Shown piece by piece: positions 3,672 through 58,341 of a stretch of DNA of 64,000 nucleotides; the first letter of the stretch is position 1, and the number at the start of each line of letters is the position of its first letter. The position numbers and the translations under genes were made by a program. Under the pieces are notes generated by a model. The model saw only the letters and a program-made list of their open reading frames with translations, searched no databases and was not told where the DNA came from. This DNA is from a virus: positions 18,192 through 82,191 of IMG/VR virus record IMGVR_UViG_3300042535_000023; one strand, given 5' to 3'.

Positions 3672-4340
3672 TTATATACCATAACCTAAAATTTTAATAT
3701 AATTTTCTAACTCTGGGGTAAGTACTTCTTTAACTCTTTCAATATGTTCTTCTTTTTTCCAATTATTTATAGAGTTTTTATCTATAGGTCTAGGTGAATT
3801 TAACGACTGATTTTTTTTCAATTTTGCTTGAGGTAAATTATAAAAATTATTAAAAGTGTCGTTAAAAGGGCAGCCTATAAAATCAGAAACTCTACTTAAT
3901 TCCGCTCTAGGATCTTCTACTAAATTCTCATATCTAACAAATATTACATTAGTATTATCTAAGTTATCAACATAGCATTGACTACCAGTAATGATTCTTT
4001 CAGGCTCCACCCAGTAAATACTTGGATTAAATTTGTGCCTCGATACTAAAACATCTAAAGGATGCCTTACCATAAATATAATTTTATACCCGTATTGTTC
4101 TGTTAGAAGTCTACAAGTGTACTCTGGTGTAAATATGTCTGAATAGCCTATAGGTTGCTTTATAACAAAATATTTATAAGTATTCGGGACAACAACCCTA
4201 CCAGGCCTTTCTAAAGGGTGGCGCTCCTCTTTAGAAAAAACAAAACAATCGTCAAAATAAGTCATAAGTAAACACATCATAGTTGTGCCTGCCCTAGGAA
4301 ACCCACTTATAAATACACCAGGTTTTCTAACTCTACCCAT
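3672..4340 (-). CDS. PAPS-dependent sulfotransferase
   Basis: Protein of 222 residues with the two signature elements of the sulfotransferase superfamily. The 5'-phosphosulfate-binding loop is GFPRAGTT (13-20). The 3'-phosphate-binding segment RHPLDVLVS (92-100) follows a hydrophobic strand (IIFMV). YENLVEDPRAEL (about 138-149) matches the usual 'YEdL..dP' phrase. It would move sulfate from PAPS to a hydroxyl or amino group, most likely on a sugar made by its neighbours. There is no transmembrane anchor, so it acts in the cytoplasm. PAPS would have to come from the host, since no APS kinase or ATP sulfurylase gene is present in this window. Confidence 0.85.
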   Translation of the reverse strand: MGRVRKPGVFISGFPRAGTTMMCLLMTYFDDCFVFSKEERHPLERPGRVVVPNTYKYFVIKQPIGYSDIFTPEYTCRLLTEQYGYKIIFMVRHPLDVLVSRHKFNPSIYWVEPERIITGSQCYVDNLDNTNVIFVRYENLVEDPRAELSRVSDFIGCPFNDTFNNFYNLPQAKLKKNQSLNSPRPIDKNSINNWKKEEHIERVKEVLTPELENYIKILGYGI

Positions 4341-4344
4341 TAAA

Positions 4345-4872
4345 CTAGGCCCCCACCCACTCGTAACAACCTATAGCTACTAAACCATTATCATTAACAC
4401 TTACATTTAACAGAGTAAATCCAAGTTCGTATCTAATTTCTTTATCGCTCCAATGGTAATGATGTGTCTCAAATGGATTACCTATAGCATTACCGTCTTG
4501 AATACAAACAGTTACAGGTATAGTTAAGTATATTCTACTCACATTGGTTTTCAGTTTATTTAAAAATTCTAAGGCGTCTTCTCTGGATAAATGTTCCAAT
4601 ACATCACCTAGAACCGCAACTGTATATTTTTTATTAAATTCAAATTGCCTCAAGTCTATGTTATATAATTCATTATAAAATTGAGGTAAATTATACTTAA
4701 TTATATAAGGTTTCCAAGCCTCTATACCTTCTATCCAAGATACCCTACCTTTAAGTAATTTTCCCCATTTGCCCTCACCAATGCCTATATCTAAAACAAC
4801 GTTGTTTGGATTAGAAATAATCTTTCTAACTATGATATTGGTACCTAAATCTGATTGCTGTGATTGTGGCAT
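4345..4872 (-). CDS. class I SAM-dependent methyltransferase
   Basis: Protein of 175 residues. VVLDIGIGEGKWGKLL (25-40) is a clear SAM-binding motif I, and VAVLGDVLEHLSREDAL is the motif IV/V region with the 'DvlEHl' phrase. The ATG is preceded by GGGAGG with ideal spacing, and the first 28 bases overlap the end of the upstream glycosyltransferase gene. A His-rich patch (FETHHYHW) lies in the C-terminal third. The substrate is probably a glycan or nucleotide sugar, judged from its place between a glycosyltransferase and a sulfotransferase. Confidence 0.8.
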   Translation of the reverse strand: MPQSQQSDLGTNIIVRKIISNPNNVVLDIGIGEGKWGKLLKGRVSWIEGIEAWKPYIIKYNLPQFYNELYNIDLRQFEFNKKYTVAVLGDVLEHLSREDALEFLNKLKTNVSRIYLTIPVTVCIQDGNAIGNPFETHHYHWSDKEIRYELGFTLLNVSVNDNGLVAIGCYEWVGA

Positions 4873-5711
4873 AAAACCTCCCTCATTTTAATAGTGATAG
4901 TATTATCGAATATATGTACATTTTCTTCATTAAGCATATTATTAAACTTCTGTGTCAATGGCGCTCCACCGTACCAATGTATTCCTGCTGAATCTTTATG
5001 TAATTTATCAGCATGATTTCCTATATATAACATATTTATTCCAATTTGCCAAGGAAAATTTATCAATGGAAAAACTATAGCGTCATGGAGCTTTGCTACA
5101 ACTAGATCTTTAAAATTATCTTTAACCTCAGATATATTTTTTTCCTCTATACTCATAGTACCAAAACATTCATATACCTTAGGATCATAGTTTGTGAGCG
5201 CTTTATTATAAACTTTAGTGAAAAATGCGTTGGCTCCCGCACTATACATAAAGGATACTGGAATGTAATCTTTCTTTGGGTAACCGTCAAAACAAATTAA
5301 CCCTACATCAGCGCCTTCAAAAACAGACTCGTCTATAGACTTTGTAAATAAAATATCCATATCAGCTACTATACCACCACAGGTACTTAGAAGCTTCCAA
5401 TTTAATAAATCCTTTATATGAACGTCGGACATAGAATTAACTATATCTCTTGGTAGATCTAACATGTTGGGGTTAAACTCTATAATAGTTATAGGAAGTT
5501 TCTGTACCATCTCAGAATAATCTGGACCACTATACTCTGTCTTATCTTGTTTCTCTACTATTACTTCATCTTGTACTCTATCTGATTGTAGGCAGTTCTT
5601 TATTAAATATACTCCCCACCCTTTATTTAGCGCGCAAAAAGAAAAAAGGGTCATGTAGCGCATATAAGACATAGTCTCATTACCCCAATAAAAATAAATA
5701 TCTTTTTTCAT
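4845..5711 (-). CDS. glycosyltransferase with DxD motif (GT32-like)
   Basis: Protein of 288 residues resembling the sugar-binding-region DXD family (GT32, capsular polysaccharide type). The diagnostic segment is a helix followed by LLSTCGGIVADMDILF (about 108-122), which parallels 'L...GGiYlDtDi' and places the metal-binding residues at Asp117 and Asp119. A second conserved-type phrase, AGIHWYGGAPL, lies near the C-terminus (His/Trp/Tyr region). No signal peptide or membrane span is visible. It overlaps the next methyltransferase gene and sits one base from the epimerase gene stop, consistent with one transcript. Confidence 0.75.
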   Translation of the reverse strand: MKKDIYFYWGNETMSYMRYMTLFSFCALNKGWGVYLIKNCLQSDRVQDEVIVEKQDKTEYSGPDYSEMVQKLPITIIEFNPNMLDLPRDIVNSMSDVHIKDLLNWKLLSTCGGIVADMDILFTKSIDESVFEGADVGLICFDGYPKKDYIPVSFMYSAGANAFFTKVYNKALTNYDPKVYECFGTMSIEEKNISEVKDNFKDLVVAKLHDAIVFPLINFPWQIGINMLYIGNHADKLHKDSAGIHWYGGAPLTQKFNNMLNEENVHIFDNTITIKMREVLCHNHSNQI

Positions 5712-5712
5712 A

Positions 5713-6783
5713 TTACTTCCCTAATAAAATATTAATAACTATATCAGATACATTTTCCACCAAATAATCTGCTGGAGGTATCCATTTATTATCCCTCTTC
5801 TGAATAAGATTAAATGATTCTAACATATTTTCATACTTTGTACCAGTTAAAATTGATGAGCCACACTCAATTAGTTCTTGTCTCTCTGTTGATTCACGAA
5901 TTATTAATGAAGGGATACCAAATAAACAGGAGATTTCTGGATTAGAGCCTGAATCACTTACTAATAAATCAGCCGTTTTACTTAATTTATTAAACTCAAA
6001 AAACCCTAGTGAACTACTCACTATAACATTTTTTGGATGGAATATCAAATCATATTTTGACATTTTATCTTTTGTTCTTGGATGTAGCGACACCACTACT
6101 TTATATTGCTCTGACATCTTGTTTACTAACCTAACAATATTAGTTAAACTTTCTCTATTATCCACATTTTCCGCGCGGTGAAAAGTTACTAATACAAATG
6201 GAACAGCATTTAGTCCTAAATCATTAACAACATTACTTGAGTCTATTTCATCTTTCCAATAGTTTAATACCTCATAAATAGGATTACCGGTTTTAAATAT
6301 ATAATTCTTACAGTAACCTTCATTTATAAGGTTTTGTTTACTATTCTCTGTGTAAGGAAGATTGTAGGTAGATAACATATCGATAATTTTACGATTAGTT
6401 TCTTCAGGAACTCTAGGATCAAAAGCGCGACTCCCAGCCTCCATATGGATTATTGGTATTTTATATCTATTAGCAACTAAAGCCAACAATCCTGAGTTGG
6501 TGTCCCCCAAAATCAATATTTTATCGGGTTTTTCTTTTAGAAGTATACGTTCAAAATCAAATATAGCTGCACCTAAAAATTCTCCAAAAGAACCACACGG
6601 TCCAGGCAAAGTATAGTCTGGTTCTCGTATTTTTAAATCTTTAAAAAACCTACCACTTAAATCGTAATCAAAATTTTGGTTGGTATATAGCAGGAAGTGC
6701 TGTACTAATTCATCTAACTTTTTAATTATCAAATGTAGGCGAATCAGCTCCGGGCGGGTTCCAACGACGGTTAAAATCTTCAT
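5713..6783 (-). CDS. wecB: UDP-N-acetylglucosamine 2-epimerase (non-hydrolysing)
   Basis: Protein of 356 residues, close to the usual family length. It interconverts UDP-GlcNAc and UDP-ManNAc, a donor precursor for many surface glycans. Family landmarks appear in order: VVGTRPELI (6-14), ILGDTNS (91-97, Asp94), HMEAGSR (113-119, Glu115), PEETNR (126-131), VTFHRAENVDN (199-209, His202), LHPRTK, and SDSGSNPE followed by RESTERQE, which bind the nucleotide diphosphate. The predicted catalytic acidic residues and histidine are therefore intact. The non-hydrolysing type is inferred from the full two-domain length. It would feed the glycosyltransferases on both sides. Confidence 0.9.
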   Translation of the reverse strand: MKILTVVGTRPELIRLHLIIKKLDELVQHFLLYTNQNFDYDLSGRFFKDLKIREPDYTLPGPCGSFGEFLGAAIFDFERILLKEKPDKILILGDTNSGLLALVANRYKIPIIHMEAGSRAFDPRVPEETNRKIIDMLSTYNLPYTENSKQNLINEGYCKNYIFKTGNPIYEVLNYWKDEIDSSNVVNDLGLNAVPFVLVTFHRAENVDNRESLTNIVRLVNKMSEQYKVVVSLHPRTKDKMSKYDLIFHPKNVIVSSSLGFFEFNKLSKTADLLVSDSGSNPEISCLFGIPSLIIRESTERQELIECGSSILTGTKYENMLESFNLIQKRDNKWIPPADYLVENVSDIVINILLGK

Positions 6784-20172: not shown

Positions 20173-20432
20173 CGAGCTACCTCATCTATTTCCATTTCAT
20201 TCTTCTGAAACAAAATTCCACAACAAAGGTACTCATGATTAATTATTTTACCTGTTTTAGGATCTTCTAATTGAACATAGTCACTTTTATACCCGATCTG
20301 TCTACAGTCAAAGGATTTCGCACAATACTTCCACTCTCCTACTACAGTGTGATCGTCCATAGGCTCGAAATCTCTACAATCTTTTTTTAATTTTAATCTG
20401 CAAATACTATCTGGTGTTATTATTAGGGACAT
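20169..20432 (-). CDS. small cysteine-rich protein
   Basis: Protein of 87 residues with six or more cysteines (CRLKLKKDC, YCAKSFDC, YLCCGILF) and no recognised family. It resembles short metal-binding host-interaction proteins. It overlaps the nuclease gene by ten bases upstream and the methyltransferase by four downstream. A promoter ends about 48 nt upstream of its start, so it is the first gene of the restriction-modification transcript. A regulatory role is possible, but no helix-turn-helix is visible. Confidence 0.55.
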   Translation of the reverse strand: MSLIITPDSICRLKLKKDCRDFEPMDDHTVVGEWKYCAKSFDCRQIGYKSDYVQLEDPKTGKIINHEYLCCGILFQKNEMEIDEVAR

Positions 20433-20782
20433 ATAGGCTCCTTATTTTGGGCTTCTAATATTCTTTGTAAGACTAATTGTTCGGTTATTATATCATTATA
20501 ATAAAACAAAGTCAAGCATAATTTATTTTCTTCACAATATTCAACTTTCAAATTATCTCTTTTCTTCTGAGCACGGAAATTAGAAACATCATTATCATGC
20601 ATATGTCTATTAAAGGTGAAGTGCTGCTGGCCCTGAACCTCTATTAAAACTGATAAATCTCTTACAAAAAAATCAAAAAATAAACGAGCACCTTTATATT
20701 TTATATAGTGTTCCTTTATAATATGACTAAAAGGAAATAATACCTTAAGTATAGCGCCCACATCTTCAGCTATTTGACTCAT
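20423..20782 (-). CDS. Vsr-like (EDxHD/PD-(D/E)XK) endonuclease
   Basis: Protein of 119 residues. FFDFFV (Asp37), LIEVQGQQHF (Glu48, Gln50, His54), FRAQKKRDNLKVEYC and LTLFYYN match, in order, the single-domain Vsr-like nucleases of phages. These include mismatch nicking enzymes and I-Bth0305I-type homing enzymes. From memory, I-Bth0305I comes from an intron in a phage recA gene, and here the gene directly follows recA as an ATGA overlap. Because the overlap is seamless and recA is intact, a resident repair or recombination nuclease is favoured. It carries a promoter for the next genes in its coding sequence. Confidence 0.7.
   Translation of the reverse strand: MSQIAEDVGAILKVLFPFSHIIKEHYIKYKGARLFFDFFVRDLSVLIEVQGQQHFTFNRHMHDNDVSNFRAQKKRDNLKVEYCEENKLCLTLFYYNDIITEQLVLQRILEAQNKEPICP
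20487..20515 (-). promoter_or_regulatory. sigma70-type promoter upstream of Cys protein and restriction-modification genes
   Basis: TTGACT (20515-20510), 17 nt, TGA, then TATAAT (20492-20487) on the minus strand. The -10 is perfect with extended TGn, and the -35 has one mismatch. The expected start near 20480 leaves about 48 nt to the ATG at 20432. It lies inside the Vsr-like nuclease gene. Confidence 0.65.
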
Positions 20783-52500: not shown

Positions 52501-55251
52501 AACATCCATTACCTCCATGGCAGAATAGTCTTGGTTAGTTACTAACTCATAGGATTGGTATCCTTTACAAAAAGTATATGGCCACCATAAAGCGCCTATC
52601 GTTTTACTATCATGTGTGTATGCTGACTTCCAAGTAACGGTAGATAATAAATTATGGTCACCACATTGGGGGTCTCTTGTTTCTCTATGTCTCCCATTAA
52701 CGATGGTGGTACCAAAACCTTCCATCCTTAATACTGTGGAGGCATATTCCCCAGTTTGTATAGGAACCTCGCTCCACGTACCATGACATCTACAAGTAGG
52801 CAAACAAGCATAATCCTTATATTCCGCTGCCCAAGTATACCTCATCTCCACATCTGGGCAAAATGGTTGCTTTACCCAAGTAACCATCTTTGTTCTAGTT
52901 GAACCAACATCTCTACCAGATCTTCCTTTAAATGTCACTCCAGCTATAGTAGTTGCCACGAACTGAGTTAAAATATAAGGATTATTACCACTAATAAAAG
53001 GCTTGTTTAAAACTGATTGATTGTCGTAGTGAGTTGCTGCCTGCCAACCATCCCCAGGGTTTTCACCAAAACTCCTTTTTTGAAATATTGTTAAATTACC
53101 TAAAACAACATTATCTTTACCATCACAAGGAGTTTTATATTTGTTTATGTCTTTAGGATACAAAATAACCTCATTTGGAGATAGCTGGCCGTAGTAAGAA
53201 TGTAAAATAACCTCTAATGGGCAAAAACTCCCATCTTGATAATATATTATATACTCATCAGCTATCCAAGGTAAAACCGCGTTGGAAACCTCCAAGTTAT
53301 CTAAAGTTAAAACAATATAACCATCTGGTAATACTTTATATTCAGTAGGGCTTAAAGTATAAACTTCAGTAATCTTTAAATATAATATATAACCAGTAAG
53401 ATGAGAATCAAGAATATTTGCATCATCAGTTGCTACAACATCTGCGCCTGGCTGTCCACCACAAGGGTCTATATTAGTAAGTAAATGAAAGTCATAGTCA
53501 TTAAATACATAAGATACTGTTGGAGTAAATCCACCATGAGATATAGGTACAAATTCAAACTGAATATCTCCATTATCATTCTTATCACAAGCGAAGGTTT
53601 TCTCATAGTAAGGTAATCCAACTACAGCTCCCCCATCACCATTAATAGCAAAATTTGTCTGTACTACCATTCCGCCAACAAAGTACTTATTAAATGTTAT
53701 TTTATCATATTCCCAGGTACCTTGTCCTTTACTAAAAGCAAAAATTATATTTTCATTATAATAAGTATTAATATTTACAGCAAAAGTATTTCCTCCTGGG
53801 TCTGTAAGGTTGCATCTTAACTTTTCTGGGGCTATTATCGTCAAACCACTTAACAGTGTGTTTAAATCTTCTTTTAATTGAGCAAATTTTACAGGATTAT
53901 TCAAACCTAATTCTATATCCAGCATAGAATCATATTGATATAAATATGAGGAAAGTATATTTTTAATTTCAGGATCACTGCCATTTAAAACAAAAGTATT
54001 AGATAAATAGAAAGACTCCCCATAAATAATAAACTCTTTGTCTTCCATAAGAGTTGTTGTTTCATAGTAATTTCTACCATTTTCTTGCTCAAATGTATTT
54101 CTAATAATTGGAGCTAACAGAACATGTTTTAAATTTGAAATTAATGATGGATAATTGGGCCCCTGGTTACCTGCTTTTAAACCGGCGGTTATAGTGGTTT
54201 TTTCATAGCCTATTGTAAATGGATCAAAATTCTCTATATATACTTTTGTTACCCCCATTCTATACTCTTGATTACCATTACTATCAATCAAAATACTTGT
54301 TTTATCCGAGTCCCATCCATCCCAGGCGTATATATAAGCATCTGAAAAATATAACTCATATAAACCTTTGGTCCAACGTTCCTTTCTAATATAATAACGT
54401 AACTCGTGTATTTGTTCTGCTTTAACCTTATCCCCGGGCTTCATTTTTAAATCAGTACAATACTGCCAACAGACCCCCGTATAATTAGAACAATCAGAGC
54501 TTGCTCCATTACATTTATAATAAAAACGTCCACCTACTACTCCGCCATCTCTAAAATTTACTACTCCAAGTTGTTTACAATCACATTTTGTATTAAAATA
54601 AGCTATTTTTCCATCTGTGCCAGGAGCATACATTGCTACATCACCTTTCCACCAAGCACACTTAGAGAGTCTAGCTCTCTCATTTAAAATCTCATAATCT
54701 AAAGGGAGTCTATAACCTAACTCTTCGGCAATTAAACAATACTCTTCTTCTGGGAAATTGGTAGCTTTTCTTGTTTTTACATCTACATCTTCACTAGGTT
54801 TTACTATACCAAAACCTAAAATATAAGGCATATAACCAGCGCATTCTATGGAGGTACCCTTATTATCACAATCACCATTATTATATTTAGTAATATCGCT
54901 AAAGGTAAATGTGGGTATAGTTTTTATAAAACCCTTAGCATCAAATATAGGCTCACTTAAAGGTACTACCCAGCTCTTACAGGTTTTTACATTATGAACG
55001 TGCCTAGTTGGATCTGGGAGAATACAGCGATATTTTGTTGAGCCTGCTGCTTTATAAGCTTGGCATTTAATATTTGTGCCAATATTATTACAAAAAGGAT
55101 AGGTTATTCTTGTACGAGCACAAAGGTCAGCCTCTTCAAAACCATTATCTTCATAATAGCTGCAAACATGAATATCATCATGCCAATACTTACAAACTGA
55201 TGGCTCTTCGTACCAATACTGACAGGGGTTATACTGAACTGGATCTGGCAT
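49585..55251 (-). CDS. 1888-residue virion protein with Cys-rich N-terminus
   Basis: Protein of 1888 residues without a family I recognise. The first 290 residues hold about 20 cysteines in spaced patterns (CQYWYEEPSVCKYWHDDIHVC, CDCKQLG, CSNYTGVCWQYC), suggesting metal clusters or disulfides. The rest is a long, mixed and aromatic-rich region, often with FGxG- and Asp-rich loops. A clearer ligand-binding domain is not obvious by eye. It is flanked by virion genes, so a tail or fibre protein is likely. The start is a TAATG overlap with the gene at 55251. Confidence 0.65.
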   Translation of the reverse strand: MPDPVQYNPCQYWYEEPSVCKYWHDDIHVCSYYEDNGFEEADLCARTRITYPFCNNIGTNIKCQAYKAAGSTKYRCILPDPTRHVHNVKTCKSWVVPLSEPIFDAKGFIKTIPTFTFSDITKYNNGDCDNKGTSIECAGYMPYILGFGIVKPSEDVDVKTRKATNFPEEEYCLIAEELGYRLPLDYEILNERARLSKCAWWKGDVAMYAPGTDGKIAYFNTKCDCKQLGVVNFRDGGVVGGRFYYKCNGASSDCSNYTGVCWQYCTDLKMKPGDKVKAEQIHELRYYIRKERWTKGLYELYFSDAYIYAWDGWDSDKTSILIDSNGNQEYRMGVTKVYIENFDPFTIGYEKTTITAGLKAGNQGPNYPSLISNLKHVLLAPIIRNTFEQENGRNYYETTTLMEDKEFIIYGESFYLSNTFVLNGSDPEIKNILSSYLYQYDSMLDIELGLNNPVKFAQLKEDLNTLLSGLTIIAPEKLRCNLTDPGGNTFAVNINTYYNENIIFAFSKGQGTWEYDKITFNKYFVGGMVVQTNFAINGDGGAVVGLPYYEKTFACDKNDNGDIQFEFVPISHGGFTPTVSYVFNDYDFHLLTNIDPCGGQPGADVVATDDANILDSHLTGYILYLKITEVYTLSPTEYKVLPDGYIVLTLDNLEVSNAVLPWIADEYIIYYQDGSFCPLEVILHSYYGQLSPNEVILYPKDINKYKTPCDGKDNVVLGNLTIFQKRSFGENPGDGWQAATHYDNQSVLNKPFISGNNPYILTQFVATTIAGVTFKGRSGRDVGSTRTKMVTWVKQPFCPDVEMRYTWAAEYKDYACLPTCRCHGTWSEVPIQTGEYASTVLRMEGFGTTIVNGRHRETRDPQCGDHNLLSTVTWKSAYTHDSKTIGALWWPYTFCKGYQSYELVTNQDYSAMEVMDVFTEGTDMGNYVDYKHGQHDLRYLGPDMYMGWTGDFCHIPTACDCGKDKFNAVKVTPKDSNIFMGYGQIRSGISDTQLLKWEKELELWPEFGNPSRPFARSYRAMDRVQYYETRPQKCITRAWKWLPIPMAFGDVDITKEGEETFWAYDSGVGQNTINPMSYMLAETIDGISVNESISQGRYRFDDVFRVRADEQITYPQGYGYMFRDSIPWYEFKSMGAGQSIQWAWRDYWKPLERRVLISLDSLFLASSEDDTKKPYTREGGNLVGLHLFCSVSYPSYVHDMYLREYTRTIDEGRHELKFVAPNRGVDGKYIGLPGMQLDDGPVRYFDWSGGDAHKKAPNYSLYDTCTKHPWYGGVSLFDNGSDAISDANSVKQNRQEDNPSVYDYKYFKTGLKVEVFASGFPFFPKILEEVVEFDAYITAGSSFFDSAWPPLVDQSPQGGAASTYTSSADFLYFTFTFGKKVKTISRVVLEFKYGYQEEEPLLDANGNVLRDADGNIRMKPAVLYHVPAVGVYAPEASSGYSSDEPYFGEYYSLYNSLSMDSPSVPVVGKPAPVVLKKVRVDCIVPLAYLITGGRDRVLIKLSQLAFGGSYLDYNNSIEITGLKLHEEWAASATEYINTYERMYHISVGNHGDMAPQGDDSNALLSANPLELSTIWQRDSRLGVMECSNNKPEIVKKVFDRNKGILASSDEAMSFVNKCQGRYVQKIQPELEPLKGSPIQMEKKQKELFDAAVKPLKDDMSMSIILPPTLGEFLADNRMKMSLPSTCSFKNTYVAPLSELVEQSPYSPAGHKFVQGAYMKTWCGDRSFSYEYIQMEKVFGDTINTTGYGEAMYGVGTVYVDPKKRIKFGGYMKHFNEVTQYSLGSSLLMDRLDIMSTLIFAIYPKYFARATTSKAFASPLSRLVYPTTLKKYPFQYFPNDEIGYAVDADIARDDFNKYGGWEGKYWANNPKMKELQQMLSSLDEALSGY

Positions 55252-55574
55252 TATCTAAGGGTCTCTGTAGTCATAGTGAATCTACCTGTATTTTCATCTA
55301 CAGAGTAAAACACTTTGGTAGCCCCTTCATAATAGCCTATAGTTCTCTTTTCTACCCGCGCGGAATCTTCTCTTCCTGGGGCAACTGAAATGCGATTCTT
55401 GACTAAGTAAGCTTGTTTATTTGATAAATCCCAACGTCTGCCATCAAACATCAAAGTAAGGGATTGAATACTAATTTTTGGAACTTCTTTCCAGGGCATT
55501 TCACCTTCAAATATTAAAGTTCCATCTGTAAGGGTAACTATCCATCCTCTTGTAAAACGATTTCTGTTAATCAT
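55251..55574 (-). CDS. small virion-associated hypothetical protein
   Basis: Protein of 107 residues, basic and probably beta-rich, with WIVTLTDGTLIFEGEMPW and RWDLSNKQAYLVKNRISV. No known family. It sits between the homing-type nuclease and the 1888-residue gene, overlapping the latter by TAATG. It may be a structural or chaperone protein; the sequence gives no further clue. Confidence 0.5.
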   Translation of the reverse strand: MINRNRFTRGWIVTLTDGTLIFEGEMPWKEVPKISIQSLTLMFDGRRWDLSNKQAYLVKNRISVAPGREDSARVEKRTIGYYEGATKVFYSVDENTGRFTMTTETLR

Positions 55575-55590: not shown

Positions 55591-56640
55591 TTATTTCATG
55601 AATACTACTTCTATATTAATCGGGGTGTGGTCTTTAACCCACTCTACTTTATATTCATCATCCTCATCGTACAAATCAGAACTTTTTATTTCAATGTATT
55701 TGTTTTCTTCTGGGAGAAAGAAATCTGGGGTATATGTTTTTCGGATACCTTCCTTGTTTATGTAAGGGAAATGTGCAGACTCATATCTCCAGGAAATACC
55801 TTTTTCATCCAATTGGGTAGCATATTTGGCCTCTATTTTAGAACGGAATTTTACTAAACCATTTTCTTTTGATTCATAAAAAGTAGGGGTTCCAAAAATG
55901 TTTTTATAATTTTTATTAATTACAGCCTTTTCAGATATGTTACAACGTCTAATTTTTTCGTTTCGTTCTTTTGTGGCTTCTTTTCCAAACAAACGTGTAA
56001 AATTCCTAGTAATAGTATGTCTATCCGTACCAACTTCTAAACCTATATCGTCCAAATTAAGATCACTATCAAAATATTTCTTAAACAATGTATATAGATA
56101 ATCTCTATGTAGGTCACATTTTCTACTTCTCATTGAAAGGTGTTGATTAAGTTTTAACACTGGGACTTTACAAACTGGGCATTCTGTTAATGTGCCAGCT
56201 CTTTCGGATACTTTTATACAGTCCTCACAATAACCTCTTCCTGCATGAGGTCTATTTGTTGTTTTACATAACTGGCATTCATCATAAAGTTGGGACCAGG
56301 CACCAAATCGTCTTTCTTGGATACCTTTTTTTCTATCCCTTACAACATTATAACAATTACCACATAACCCTTTAGCTTTATATACCTTATCATTTTTTCC
56401 ACATTTTATACAAACTTTTTCTTTCCAATCATAATTTTTATAAAAATTATCTCTATAACAATTTCTACATAAACCATTGGCCCTATGTTTAATTTTAGTG
56501 GTACCACAAATACTACAAGACTCATATTTCATAGACCACTTACCATCTAAAGACCATCCTTCTTTATGTCTTCTATTATGCCCACATATAAAAATATTAT
56601 CTTTTCTAGTTATTCCACCACACCCGCATTGACATTCCAT
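55591..56640 (-). CDS. free-standing homing-type endonuclease (zinc-finger array plus PD-(D/E)XK)
   Basis: Protein of 349 residues. Zinc-binding repeats dominate the first 175: CQCGCGG then FICGHN, CSICGTTK...GLCRNCY, CIKCGK...GLCGNCY, CQLCKTT...GYCEDC, and CPVC. A helix-turn-helix-like region (LNLDDIGLEVGTDRHTITR, about 194-212) follows. The C-terminus is a PD-(D/E)XK nuclease: FRSKIEAKYA (Glu270), RYES, YTPDFFLP (Asp306) and YIEIKS (Glu317, Lys319). This layout is typical of mobile phage endonucleases. It interrupts the structural module and is preceded by an inverted-repeat region. Confidence 0.8.
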   Translation of the reverse strand: MECQCGCGGITRKDNIFICGHNRRHKEGWSLDGKWSMKYESCSICGTTKIKHRANGLCRNCYRDNFYKNYDWKEKVCIKCGKNDKVYKAKGLCGNCYNVVRDRKKGIQERRFGAWSQLYDECQLCKTTNRPHAGRGYCEDCIKVSERAGTLTECPVCKVPVLKLNQHLSMRSRKCDLHRDYLYTLFKKYFDSDLNLDDIGLEVGTDRHTITRNFTRLFGKEATKERNEKIRRCNISEKAVINKNYKNIFGTPTFYESKENGLVKFRSKIEAKYATQLDEKGISWRYESAHFPYINKEGIRKTYTPDFFLPEENKYIEIKSSDLYDEDDEYKVEWVKDHTPINIEVVFMK

Positions 56641-56681
56641 AGCTTTTCTCCTTATTGAGATTTTTTAATTTTTTAAGGTTA

Positions 56682-56705
56682 GGTAGGATGAATAAGCATC
56701 CTACC
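56682..56705. repeat. inverted repeat, 9-bp stem with 6-base loop
   Basis: GGTAGGATG and CATCCTACC flank AATAAG on the + strand, giving nine uninterrupted pairs. It lies in the 99-base gap between the nuclease gene and the 533-residue virion gene. No U-tract follows on the minus-strand transcript, so it is not a canonical intrinsic terminator. It could be an RNA processing or stability element. Confidence 0.7.
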
Positions 56706-56707
56706 AG

Positions 56708-56719
56708 CGTTGGCCAACG
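56708..56719. repeat. perfect 12-bp palindrome
   Basis: CGTTGGCCAACG is a perfect palindrome two bases from the hairpin at 56682-56705. Together they make a tandem structured element upstream of the nuclease gene. It may be a protein-binding site. Confidence 0.75.
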
Positions 56720-56739
56720 TTGTCCCTTAATTCTATCAA

Positions 56740-58341
56740 TTATGAATAATCGTAATAAAAACGGCTATTTAAGCTCGAATTTGCCCCTGTTTCGGCCGTT
56801 CCAAGTCTAATATTAACATAAATAACATCGCTTGTCAACCCATAACTTCCGATAGACTCAGAATCGTCTGCGTTATCTACTATATGCAAGTTTTCTTTAG
56901 TGCTATAAAGATAAGCTGGCGGGGTATCATTATCAATATCACCAGCTACAATTCCTGGATACCACTCGATACCAGTAATTTCCCCAGAACCTGCTTTATT
57001 TTTCTGGCCCACTGTACCAAATCTAAATTTAGTATCTGAATTACCTTCATCGTGATGATTAAATGAGCCATGAGATTGTTGACCAAACTTAACCGAAGAA
57101 ACCTCAACAGCACCAGCCTCAACCTCAAACAAAATACACTTGACAGCACTCTCGGTGGATACCGTAACATTTCCATAATTGAGACTTGTTATATTATAGT
57201 TTAAAGGTTTAGGTCCGGTACACCTAACAGTAAACTCCTCACCAGCACTTAGGGAAGAACCACCAGTTGGATTAAACATGACATATAACCCCTTGGTACC
57301 AACCCTGGAGTAACCACCAGAAACAGTTGTTAAAGGAACGCTACTCATATCCCCTCTGTTGGAACTATAAACATAAGAGGCACTACCCACCACCGCAGAG
57401 GCATTCGTGCCTGTAGCGTAATCTGGCTTGTAACAAGCTATGGTCCACGCTGGGTTAGCGGTATTAAATACTGCGTCAGAGAATTTAACCATTAATCCTT
57501 TTGTTCCTACTTTATACCAATGGTCTGGATATAACAACTCAACATAAACACCACCAGATGAGTTATCGGTGGCAGTAGAAGATGTCCAAGTCATGGTGGG
57601 TACATTTCCTGTACCAGCACCCATGGTAGAACCATTTGATGTGCTTATAATTATTGTGTAAGTGATATCAACTGTGTTATTAAAAATGCCACCAGTTGTA
57701 ATGGTACCATCATAAGTATTAGCTCCACCTTTTGTAGCAGTTCCTATACCCCTAGAAGCATGATTATCATTACTTACAACAATACTATAAGTTTCATCAA
57801 ATAGGCCATAGTAAGTTCCTGAAGTAGAAACTGTACCATTAAAAGTATAAGGAGAAGAAGCTAGATGTGGGATATACACTGCCCCACCTGTCTCAACCTT
57901 GGCATCAAAACCAAGCACTGAATGGGCACTATCTGTACCACTTGATACTACTACACTTGAAGATGACCCCATCGAGCCAGAATAAATCTTGAAACAATTA
58001 TTATAAGTATTACCTGACACTCTGTCGTATTGATTTGAAAACTCACAATAGGCCTGATCATATCTGGCGTCACTCTTACCAAGATTTCTAAGCTTTTCAG
58101 TTATGTCTCTAGCAACATAACGAGGATCTAAAAGGGCCCCAGAGTAAAGAGTAATGGTACTACTATCCCCATCTATACTTAAATAGAGTTTATTAGTAGT
58201 TTGGCCAATAGTAAATTGGTCTCCTATAGAAGAAGTTCCTATAGAATATCCCATAGTCCCTTTACAACCTGCTCCTCTACCATCCCCTATTGTTCCAGAA
58301 GATGTTGGATTATATTGTACAACTCTTGCTCTTGCTGCCAT
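56740..58341 (-). CDS. virion protein with repeated beta modules, probably abundant
   Basis: Protein of 533 residues. N-terminal domain about 40-145 (NKLYLSIDGDSSTITLYSG, NCFKIYSGSMGSSSSV) is shared with the 2502-residue protein. Modules with [YV]-GTKGL-x-V-x-F (KVGTKGLMVKFSDAVF, RVGTKGLYVMFNPTGG) repeat in the middle; a similar module is in the 1123-residue Kelch protein. The coding sequence looks less AT-rich than neighbours, and AGGAGG precedes the start, both hinting at high expression. A major fibre or tail protein is a fair guess. Confidence 0.7.
   Translation of the reverse strand: MAARARVVQYNPTSSGTIGDGRGAGCKGTMGYSIGTSSIGDQFTIGQTTNKLYLSIDGDSSTITLYSGALLDPRYVARDITEKLRNLGKSDARYDQAYCEFSNQYDRVSGNTYNNCFKIYSGSMGSSSSVVVSSGTDSAHSVLGFDAKVETGGAVYIPHLASSPYTFNGTVSTSGTYYGLFDETYSIVVSNDNHASRGIGTATKGGANTYDGTITTGGIFNNTVDITYTIIISTSNGSTMGAGTGNVPTMTWTSSTATDNSSGGVYVELLYPDHWYKVGTKGLMVKFSDAVFNTANPAWTIACYKPDYATGTNASAVVGSASYVYSSNRGDMSSVPLTTVSGGYSRVGTKGLYVMFNPTGGSSLSAGEEFTVRCTGPKPLNYNITSLNYGNVTVSTESAVKCILFEVEAGAVEVSSVKFGQQSHGSFNHHDEGNSDTKFRFGTVGQKNKAGSGEITGIEWYPGIVAGDIDNDTPPAYLYSTKENLHIVDNADDSESIGSYGLTSDVIYVNIRLGTAETGANSSLNSRFYYDYS

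Follow-up and report, generated by a model that had tools for sequence, protein, structure and literature searches.

What a short run of paired repeats is doing ahead of a nuclease gene, among the virion genes of a phage, is the question raised by one locus of the IMG/VR record IMGVR_UViG_3300042535_000023. The window (the whole stretch of DNA that was analyzed) comprises 64,000 of the 82,191 bases of this viral contig; UvsX-like, DnaB-like and baseplate-wedge-like proteins encoded elsewhere in it suggest a tailed, myovirus-like phage. The repeats lie in a gap of 99 bases (56641–56739) between an upstream open reading frame (ORF) and the ORF of a homing-type nuclease. Very probably, this gap encodes a portable leader RNA of homing endonuclease genes (HEGs), in which a pseudoknot masks the Shine-Dalgarno (SD) sequence and lowers translation. 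The features concerned are these:

55591–56640, minus strand: homing-type nuclease gene (HEG) of 349 residues; open frame, matches to PF05367 and PDB 1fzr, slot variable in relatives
56673–56730, minus strand: putative leader RNA, a three-way junction of helices P1, P2 and P3; match to model R3 and covariation
56725–56730, minus strand: 5' strand of P1, UUAAGG, pairing with 56673–56678 (repeat finder)
56673–56678, minus strand: 3' strand of P1, CCUUAA, pairing with 56725–56730 (repeat finder)
56706–56721, minus strand: P2 hairpin with loop GGCC, containing the 12-bp palindrome at 56708–56719
56682–56705, minus strand: P3 hairpin, a 9-bp stem with a 6-nucleotide loop (sequence, covariation and repeat finder)
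56691–56696, minus strand: loop of P3 (L3), CUUAUU, the predicted pseudoknot arm, complementary to 56651–56656
56651–56656, minus strand: partner of L3 in the SD region, AAUAAG, a perfect complement of CUUAUU that overlaps the SD sequence
56648–56653, minus strand: SD sequence of the nuclease gene, AAGGAG, by sequence reading

On the transcribed strand the gap reads UUAAGG-GAC-A(P2)U-G(P3)C-UAA-CCUUAA, and the three-way junction ends 32 nucleotides ahead of the nuclease ATG (minus strand). The R3 match (56673–56731) scored 63.3 bits, the window copy being itself part of that model. A first-pass annotation, made from the letters of the window, had placed the ORF, the 99-base gap, a stem-loop at 56682–56705 and the perfect 12-bp palindrome CGTTGGCCAACG at 56708–56719, all at their exact positions. 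Two pairings in the gap beyond those repeats were listed independently by the repeat finder, i.e. P1 and that of the P3 loop with the SD region (56691–56696 with 56651–56656). The annotation also held this to be the only such region in the window. The adjacency of the two repeats is indeed unique there, but each type of repeat occurs at chance level: perfect stem-loops with arms of at least 9 and loops of 3–8 gave four listings (three sites) against a mean of 3.5, and perfect palindromes of at least 12 numbered 27 against a mean of 30, with the random expectation taken from 10 first-order Markov sequences. The gap repeats are ordinary by count and not ordinary by conservation.

Eleven copies of the leader were obtained from 10 viral contigs, all of them metagenomic. 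Besides the window, the same three-way junction was seen at loci L005, L013, L018, L019 and L029. A DNA pattern drawn from these six copies and scanned over viral contigs led to L048, which model R1 (six copies) scored at 40.1 bits with L048 unseen in training. Over 30 whole contigs, R1 matched strongly once per source contig and once in the contig of L048, its only other matches being two weak ones in G016. A relaxed pattern yielded 44 stretches, of which one, L081 (44.4 bits), was new and real. Model R2 (eight copies), applied to 33 whole contigs, located L119, a second copy in the contig of L081 (40.2 bits, E = 9e-10). Its application to another 86 contigs, of which 79 had relatives of the L048 nuclease and 7 came from chance pattern hits, added L203 and L202 (31.5 bits each, E = 4e-8); the E values of the leader models are rough. 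Neither loop nor SD sequence was used in finding L048, L081, L119, L202 and L203, which thus served as out-of-sample tests of the pseudoknot.

In the 11-copy alignment, 93.1% of the pair cells were standard, and 12 of the 16 pairs had changes on both sides. The covariation score was 0.725, compared to 0.257 for shuffled alignments and 0.138–0.222 when partners were slid by 1–3 columns. The count of further pair types was unremarkable (26 v. 23.2, a value reached by 63 of 500 shuffles), and one pair, that of column 13 with column 26, was G-U in eight copies and non-standard in three. Twelve positions at the junction were invariant (GGACA, UG and CUAAC), while the helix sequences varied. Five copies had GACG as the loop of P2 and four had GGCC; in L203, GGCC was shifted by one, and L202 had neither.

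The whole P3 loop was complementary to its own SD region (within 24 nucleotides of the start codon) in nine of the 11 copies. Among 108 non-cognate loop-SD pairs, from which the two L005/L019 crosses were left out (loop and SD being shared), there was no full match, and none reached six contiguous pairs. The observed sum of 70 was attained by none of 300,000 loop-SD permutations (mean 42.1), and shuffled upstream stretches gave 0.09 full matches per 11. The complement on the SD side ended 5–13 nucleotides before the start codon in 11/11 copies and began 16–27 nucleotides after P3. For the out-of-sample copies, the loop match was full in L081, L119, L202 and L203 and partial in L048.

We propose that the gap acts as the cis-acting leader RNA of a mobile HEG. 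Three helices would join at a junction with the invariant core GGACA ... UG ... CUAAC, and the P3 loop and the downstream SD region would form a pseudoknot that masks the ribosome landing site, such that little nuclease would be made from the virion-gene transcript. The leader would move with nuclease genes without being tied to any one family of them. What the sequence itself shows is the structure and its covariation, the complementarity of loop and SD, the occurrence ahead of HEG-like ORFs and one case in which leader and nuclease are present or absent together; we infer that the pseudoknot forms in vivo, that translation is lowered and that some factor relieves it.

HEGs without a leader at the same genomic slot (described below) were also considered. 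Ten of the 14 were tested; the near-duplicates L006, L007 and L011 were left out, as was L009, where the nuclease start overlaps with the gene upstream. Ordinary folding paired the best SD-like stretch of every one of the 10, with a mean probability of 0.84 and a minimum of 0.65, compared to 0.47 over 28 other genes of the window (one-sided P = 2e-5). Nested SD pairing of the HEGs with a leader (0.50) was close to that of the ordinary genes (0.47, P = 0.65), unless the pseudoknot was counted. We read the leader pseudoknot and nested folding as two routes to hiding the nuclease SD in the virion transcript. At three of the leaderless HEGs (L002 6576–6722, L010 3765–3908 and L012 6576–6681), long hairpins lie over the SD and enclose, as judged by eye, TTGACT/TTGATT and TATAAT-like hexamers; as a putative internal promoter, such hexamers might yield transcripts lacking the 5' arm of the hairpin.

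The slot lies between two genes, which in the window flank the nuclease gene:

56740–58341, minus strand: upstream gene of 533 residues, the slot marker, common to 31 viral contigs
55251–55574, minus strand: downstream gene of 107 residues, with a tblastn match in most slot loci that reach so far

The 31 viral loci with the 533-residue gene and the window made up 32 slots; these include the near-duplicate sets L002/L006/L007, L010/L011 and L015/L016 and so do not all count as independent. Occupancy was called by reading of ORFs. A nuclease-like ORF of one of several kinds was present in 18 of the 32 slots and none in 14, i.e. the presence and absence at an orthologous intergenic site that is expected of a free-standing homing endonuclease. 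The window's kind of nuclease occurs in the window, L009, L017, L022, L024 and L025, the last having a GIY-YIG/NUMOD3 gene in addition. A kind with helix-turn-helix, NUMOD3 and weak endonuclease I matches was found by scanning in L002 and L029 and was assigned by similarity or by eye in L004, L006, L007, L010, L011, L012 and one of the two ORFs of L014. L018 has a nuclease of the phrog_559 kind (scanned), with which L003 and the longer ORF of L014 align, and the slot of L013 holds a NUMOD3-kind nuclease ended by the contig edge. The slot of L031, without a nuclease ORF, retains the tail of an L002-kind nuclease (6589–6714, 42 residues, 60% identical, one internal stop). Judged by its occupants, the slot is a hotspot of mobile nuclease genes rather than the site of a fixed virion gene, and the window nuclease is one of several kinds in it. 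The first-pass annotation's term “homing-type” is borne out by relatives whose slot lacks such an ORF or holds other nucleases, and the conserved nuclease at a fixed position that it had set down as a refutation did not appear, the slot being variable among the 32. Its wording that the nuclease interrupts virion genes needs narrowing: the gene lies between virion-region genes, but no virion gene is split. No match to the 533-residue protein was obtained among named phages. In L002, the neighboring gap before the 533-residue gene has a further nuclease-like ORF at 4275–4955, in which zinc repeats and an end resembling HNH were recognized by eye.

Joint presence or absence of leader and nuclease was seen in one comparison. 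Up to the last base of the 533-residue gene, and again from position 8045 of L018, the loci L018 and L015 share 80% identity. Between these flanks L018 has 1,515 bases, comprising the leader and a 478-residue HEG minus its last nine codons, v. 64 bases in L015, where neither is present; L016 is the same as L015. The leader can thus come or go with the nuclease. The annotation had proposed to see whether the repeats leave with the nuclease; they do in the comparison of L018 with the near-duplicates L015 and L016, for a nuclease other than the window's. Repeats kept without the nuclease, which it had named as a refutation, occur in L005 and L019. One leader kind precedes different nucleases in one slot, which suggests that nuclease ORFs have been exchanged behind it. 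The slot of L015 and L016 (6549–6624) has a perfect 10-bp hairpin of its own, GGTAAGATAC-TAAC-GTATCTTACC, that differs from the leader.

Six copies of the leader are located in the window's tail slot; the other five, from four contigs, have a sheath, tube or nrdD gene as a neighbor. These four contigs, which may be fragments, gave no match to the 533-residue gene in a search in which two positive controls matched. All 11 copies stand directly before an ORF: nine of these ORFs are HEG-like and belong to several nuclease families, one is a likely remnant, and one is an unrecognized ORF of 14 codons (L005). L048 lies between a tail sheath gene and a 509-residue HEG, with the tail tube gene next; L119 follows a tail sheath gene and precedes an interrupted HEG; L203 follows a tail-sheath-like end (by eye) and precedes an HEG of at least 489 residues; and L202 lies between a short tail-tube-like ORF (by eye) and a 361-residue ORF of the phrog_559 kind. 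L081 follows NrdD (PF13597, 5e-71) and precedes a 282-residue ORF of family phrog_22677; another, separate piece of that family, matching an endonuclease weakly, comes next. In contig G032, both nuclease genes with leaders (L220, 93–1319, and L119, 1575–3057) are split over more than one frame, by decay or assembly error. In L019 the leader precedes a 28-codon ORF starting MSKKKSIEEI, 8 of the 10 residues being as in the L013 nuclease (protein E = 0.17), and the DNA similarity of the two loci extends 30 bases into the L013 nuclease gene; L019 looks like a decayed nuclease footprint. L005 and L019 (about 6550–6760) are also without a match to the 107-residue gene, as if one deletion had removed both.

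Several observations weigh against a pseudoknot leader that belongs to HEGs. Nested folding on its own often predicts structures other than the junction, and for several full leaders the plain minimum-free-energy fold disrupts P1. Two loops match incompletely, those of L029 (6/7, with a mismatch) and L048 (6/8), and among the ten L3-SD duplexes scored, that of the window is the weakest (-1.7 kcal/mol). Not every copy counts as independent, as six share one slot and L005 and L019 share loop and SD. The latter two keep the leader without a nuclease, and the leader is missing from 14 of the 18 occupied slots and from 77 of the 79 further HEG contigs.

Other explanations of the structure were weighed against the same data. 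The junction could be a riboswitch-like sensor, the core of which binds a metabolite, ion or protein that opens or stabilizes the L3-SD pseudoknot, thereby setting the time at which nuclease is made. We regard this as possible, if doubtful: 12 junction positions are invariant amid varying helices and different phages have the core in common, yet a purely structural junction could be conserved too, and none of the copies scanned reached the threshold of an Rfam riboswitch model. If it were so, which we would suggest only tentatively, the leader would represent a new, portable riboswitch-like class carried on selfish genes, sensing a cell or infection signal and timing HEGs of different families, with different nuclease ORFs swapped in behind it. 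A role in RNA processing or stability (ribozyme, RNase site or exonuclease block), separating the nuclease from the virion message, seems very unlikely. The compact junction, invariant core and loop-to-downstream pseudoknot would suit it, and the topology recalls that of flaviviral exonuclease-resistant RNAs. However, the copies scanned gave no match to an Rfam ribozyme model at threshold, and the location of the partner in the SD region, 5–13 nucleotides before the start codon in every copy, is better explained by translational control.

The repeats might instead act as DNA, i.e. as a nuclease binding or cleavage site or an insertion footprint; an insertion footprint and a “cleavage-site remnant” were both among the options of the first-pass annotation. 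They do border the nuclease unit, and L015 and L016 lack them along with the nuclease. But the same structure and core precede nucleases of different families at different genes, the helices and loop covary as RNA, the loop-SD covariation and the spacing to the start codon have no obvious reason in DNA, and the window-kind nucleases of L009, L017, L022, L024 and L025 are without the repeats; we consider a DNA role very unlikely and the cleavage-site remnant unsupported. Least credible is a 3' end of the upstream virion gene (a terminator or mRNA end) downstream of which nucleases land. It would fit a structure close behind the upstream stop codon and the presence of that structure without a nuclease in L005 and L019; against it, no intrinsic terminator was found there, the upstream genes are unrelated (533-residue protein, sheath, tube and nrdD), and the structure is absent from 12 of the 14 slots without a nuclease ORF. 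Reading the window's gap as a terminator thus found no support. Sigma-70-like matches near the gap were no commoner than in shuffled sequence, in a scan outside of which phage late promoters fall. The annotation's remaining suggestion, that the repeats may be regulatory, is strongly supported and has become specific, namely a three-way junction with a P3 loop complementary to the SD region.

The searches also produced candidates that were discarded. A mis-spaced DNA pattern gave chance matches only. The first exact pattern returned seven stretches, i.e. five known copies and two (L035 and L039) within reading frames; the second returned 10, among which L049–L052 were without a model match. None of the 12 genome_contigs pattern hits was kept: L065 (23.0 bits) falls within a reading frame, L064 and L066 scored 11.5 and 9.9 bits, and the remaining nine had no model match. 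From the relaxed pattern, L104 (23.1 bits) and L092 (20.9 bits) lie within reading frames, and L075 scored 13.5. Two R1 matches in G016, L060 (17.8 bits, overlapping the start of an HEG frame) and L061 (13.9 bits), were rejected, as were weak model matches at L030 (15.6 bits), L039 (13.1), L204 (15.0) and L205 (12.5), in G035 (12.7), G010 (11.0), G032 (12.0), G019 (15.8), G053 (14.2) and G068 (14.1), and a 16-nucleotide echo in G000. The weak matches read in context were L060, L061, L204 and those of G053 and G019.

Twelve named HEG-bearing phages gave no leader match in a search with stricter filters and no positive control, and blastn of the L005 motif against named phages gave no match. In the named phages CP220 (L212, FN667788.1) and BX-1 (L213, OK428602.1), related HEGs adjoin tail sheath/tail tube genes; the leader was not found there. 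Rfam scans of the window and six loci, covering two of the 11 copies, gave no family at the gathering threshold, and permissive scans of four copies gave sub-threshold matches only, e.g. freshwater-2 (15.6 v. 49.9) and cow-rumen-4 (16.9 v. 48.5). The leader element was not named in the open-access literature searched.

The nuclease of the window combines CxxC zinc-ribbon patterns with a C-terminal PD-(D/E)XK-type domain:

55597–55857, minus strand: T7 endonuclease I-like domain, residues 262–348; PF05367 and PDB matches, invariant E270, D306, E317 and K319
56101–56640, minus strand: zinc-ribbon region, ca. residues 1–180 (limits approximate); CxxC repeats, weak DZR_2 match, many invariant cysteines

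The protein scored 43.5 bits against PF05367, above the curated Pfam cut-off of 29.1, and matched PDB 1fzr over residues 264–348 (E = 3.8e-9); the match of the zinc-ribbon region to DZR_2 was weak and under the cut-off of that family. E270, D306, E317 and K319 are invariant among six related proteins aligned, as are many of the cysteines. E, D and ExK are the catalytic acidic and lysine positions of T7 endonuclease I-like nucleases; the E and D align with the PDB chains, and the ExK is altered in the two best chains. The domain at residues 264–348 is thus shared with the T7 endonuclease I family (PF05367; PDB 1fzr, 2pfj, 1m0d and 3cae), whereas the window protein has ca. 180 extra zinc-ribbon residues and a further region ahead of the nuclease domain, and its gene occupies a variable slot among virion genes. 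Relatives among named phages (11 records) all matched in the C-terminal domain only. As direct queries against viral contigs, the nuclease protein and its 1888-residue neighbor retrieved no relatives. The predicted structure of the nuclease (mean pLDDT 69, pTM 0.32) was set aside. A piece of an HEG-like gene (119 residues, 20423–20782, minus strand; phrog_9084 5e-13, phrog_559 6e-13) lies in the window beside the UvsX-like gene, and a second phrog_559 match lies beyond the window at contig positions 2089–2460; the leader-model search found no leader at either.

The leader can be set beside three known systems. In flaviviral exonuclease-resistant RNAs, as is predicted for the leader, the apical loop of P3 in a three-way junction pairs 3' of P1; the core sequence and context differ, and the partner here is the SD, 16–27 nucleotides after P3. 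Riboswitches that mask the SD in a pseudoknot include preQ1-II, preQ1-III and SAM-II. In these, as is proposed for the leader, a structured domain upstream forms a pseudoknot with the SD region, but the core differs, none of the leader copies scanned matched an Rfam model at threshold, and the leader precedes selfish nuclease genes.

The closest likeness is to the HEG leaders of T4-type phages. According to PMC2988022, structures that hide the ribosome-binding site (RBS) occur at I-TevI, I-TevII, I-TevIII, segB and Aeh1 mobE. As is proposed here, an RNA structure directly upstream of a phage HEG hides the RBS in a long transcript; the T4-type leaders are described there as hairpins that have a late promoter within them or close by. 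In our copies, the position directly upstream of an HEG recurs (nine of 11 HEG-like, one remnant, one unrecognized), and pairing with the RBS is predicted from sequence alone (whole L3, nine of 11). In place of a simple nested hairpin there is a conserved three-way junction, the P3 loop of which would pair with the SD and which recurs before different nuclease families. RNA control of HEGs is known from single T4-type cases, by hairpins; the present element is conserved and alignable across families and phages, which suggests that mobile nucleases may share a portable translational lock. The leader provides a signature for finding more, and how selfish intergenic genes stay quiet in virion operons becomes testable. 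It is best read as a new structural class of a control already known from T4.
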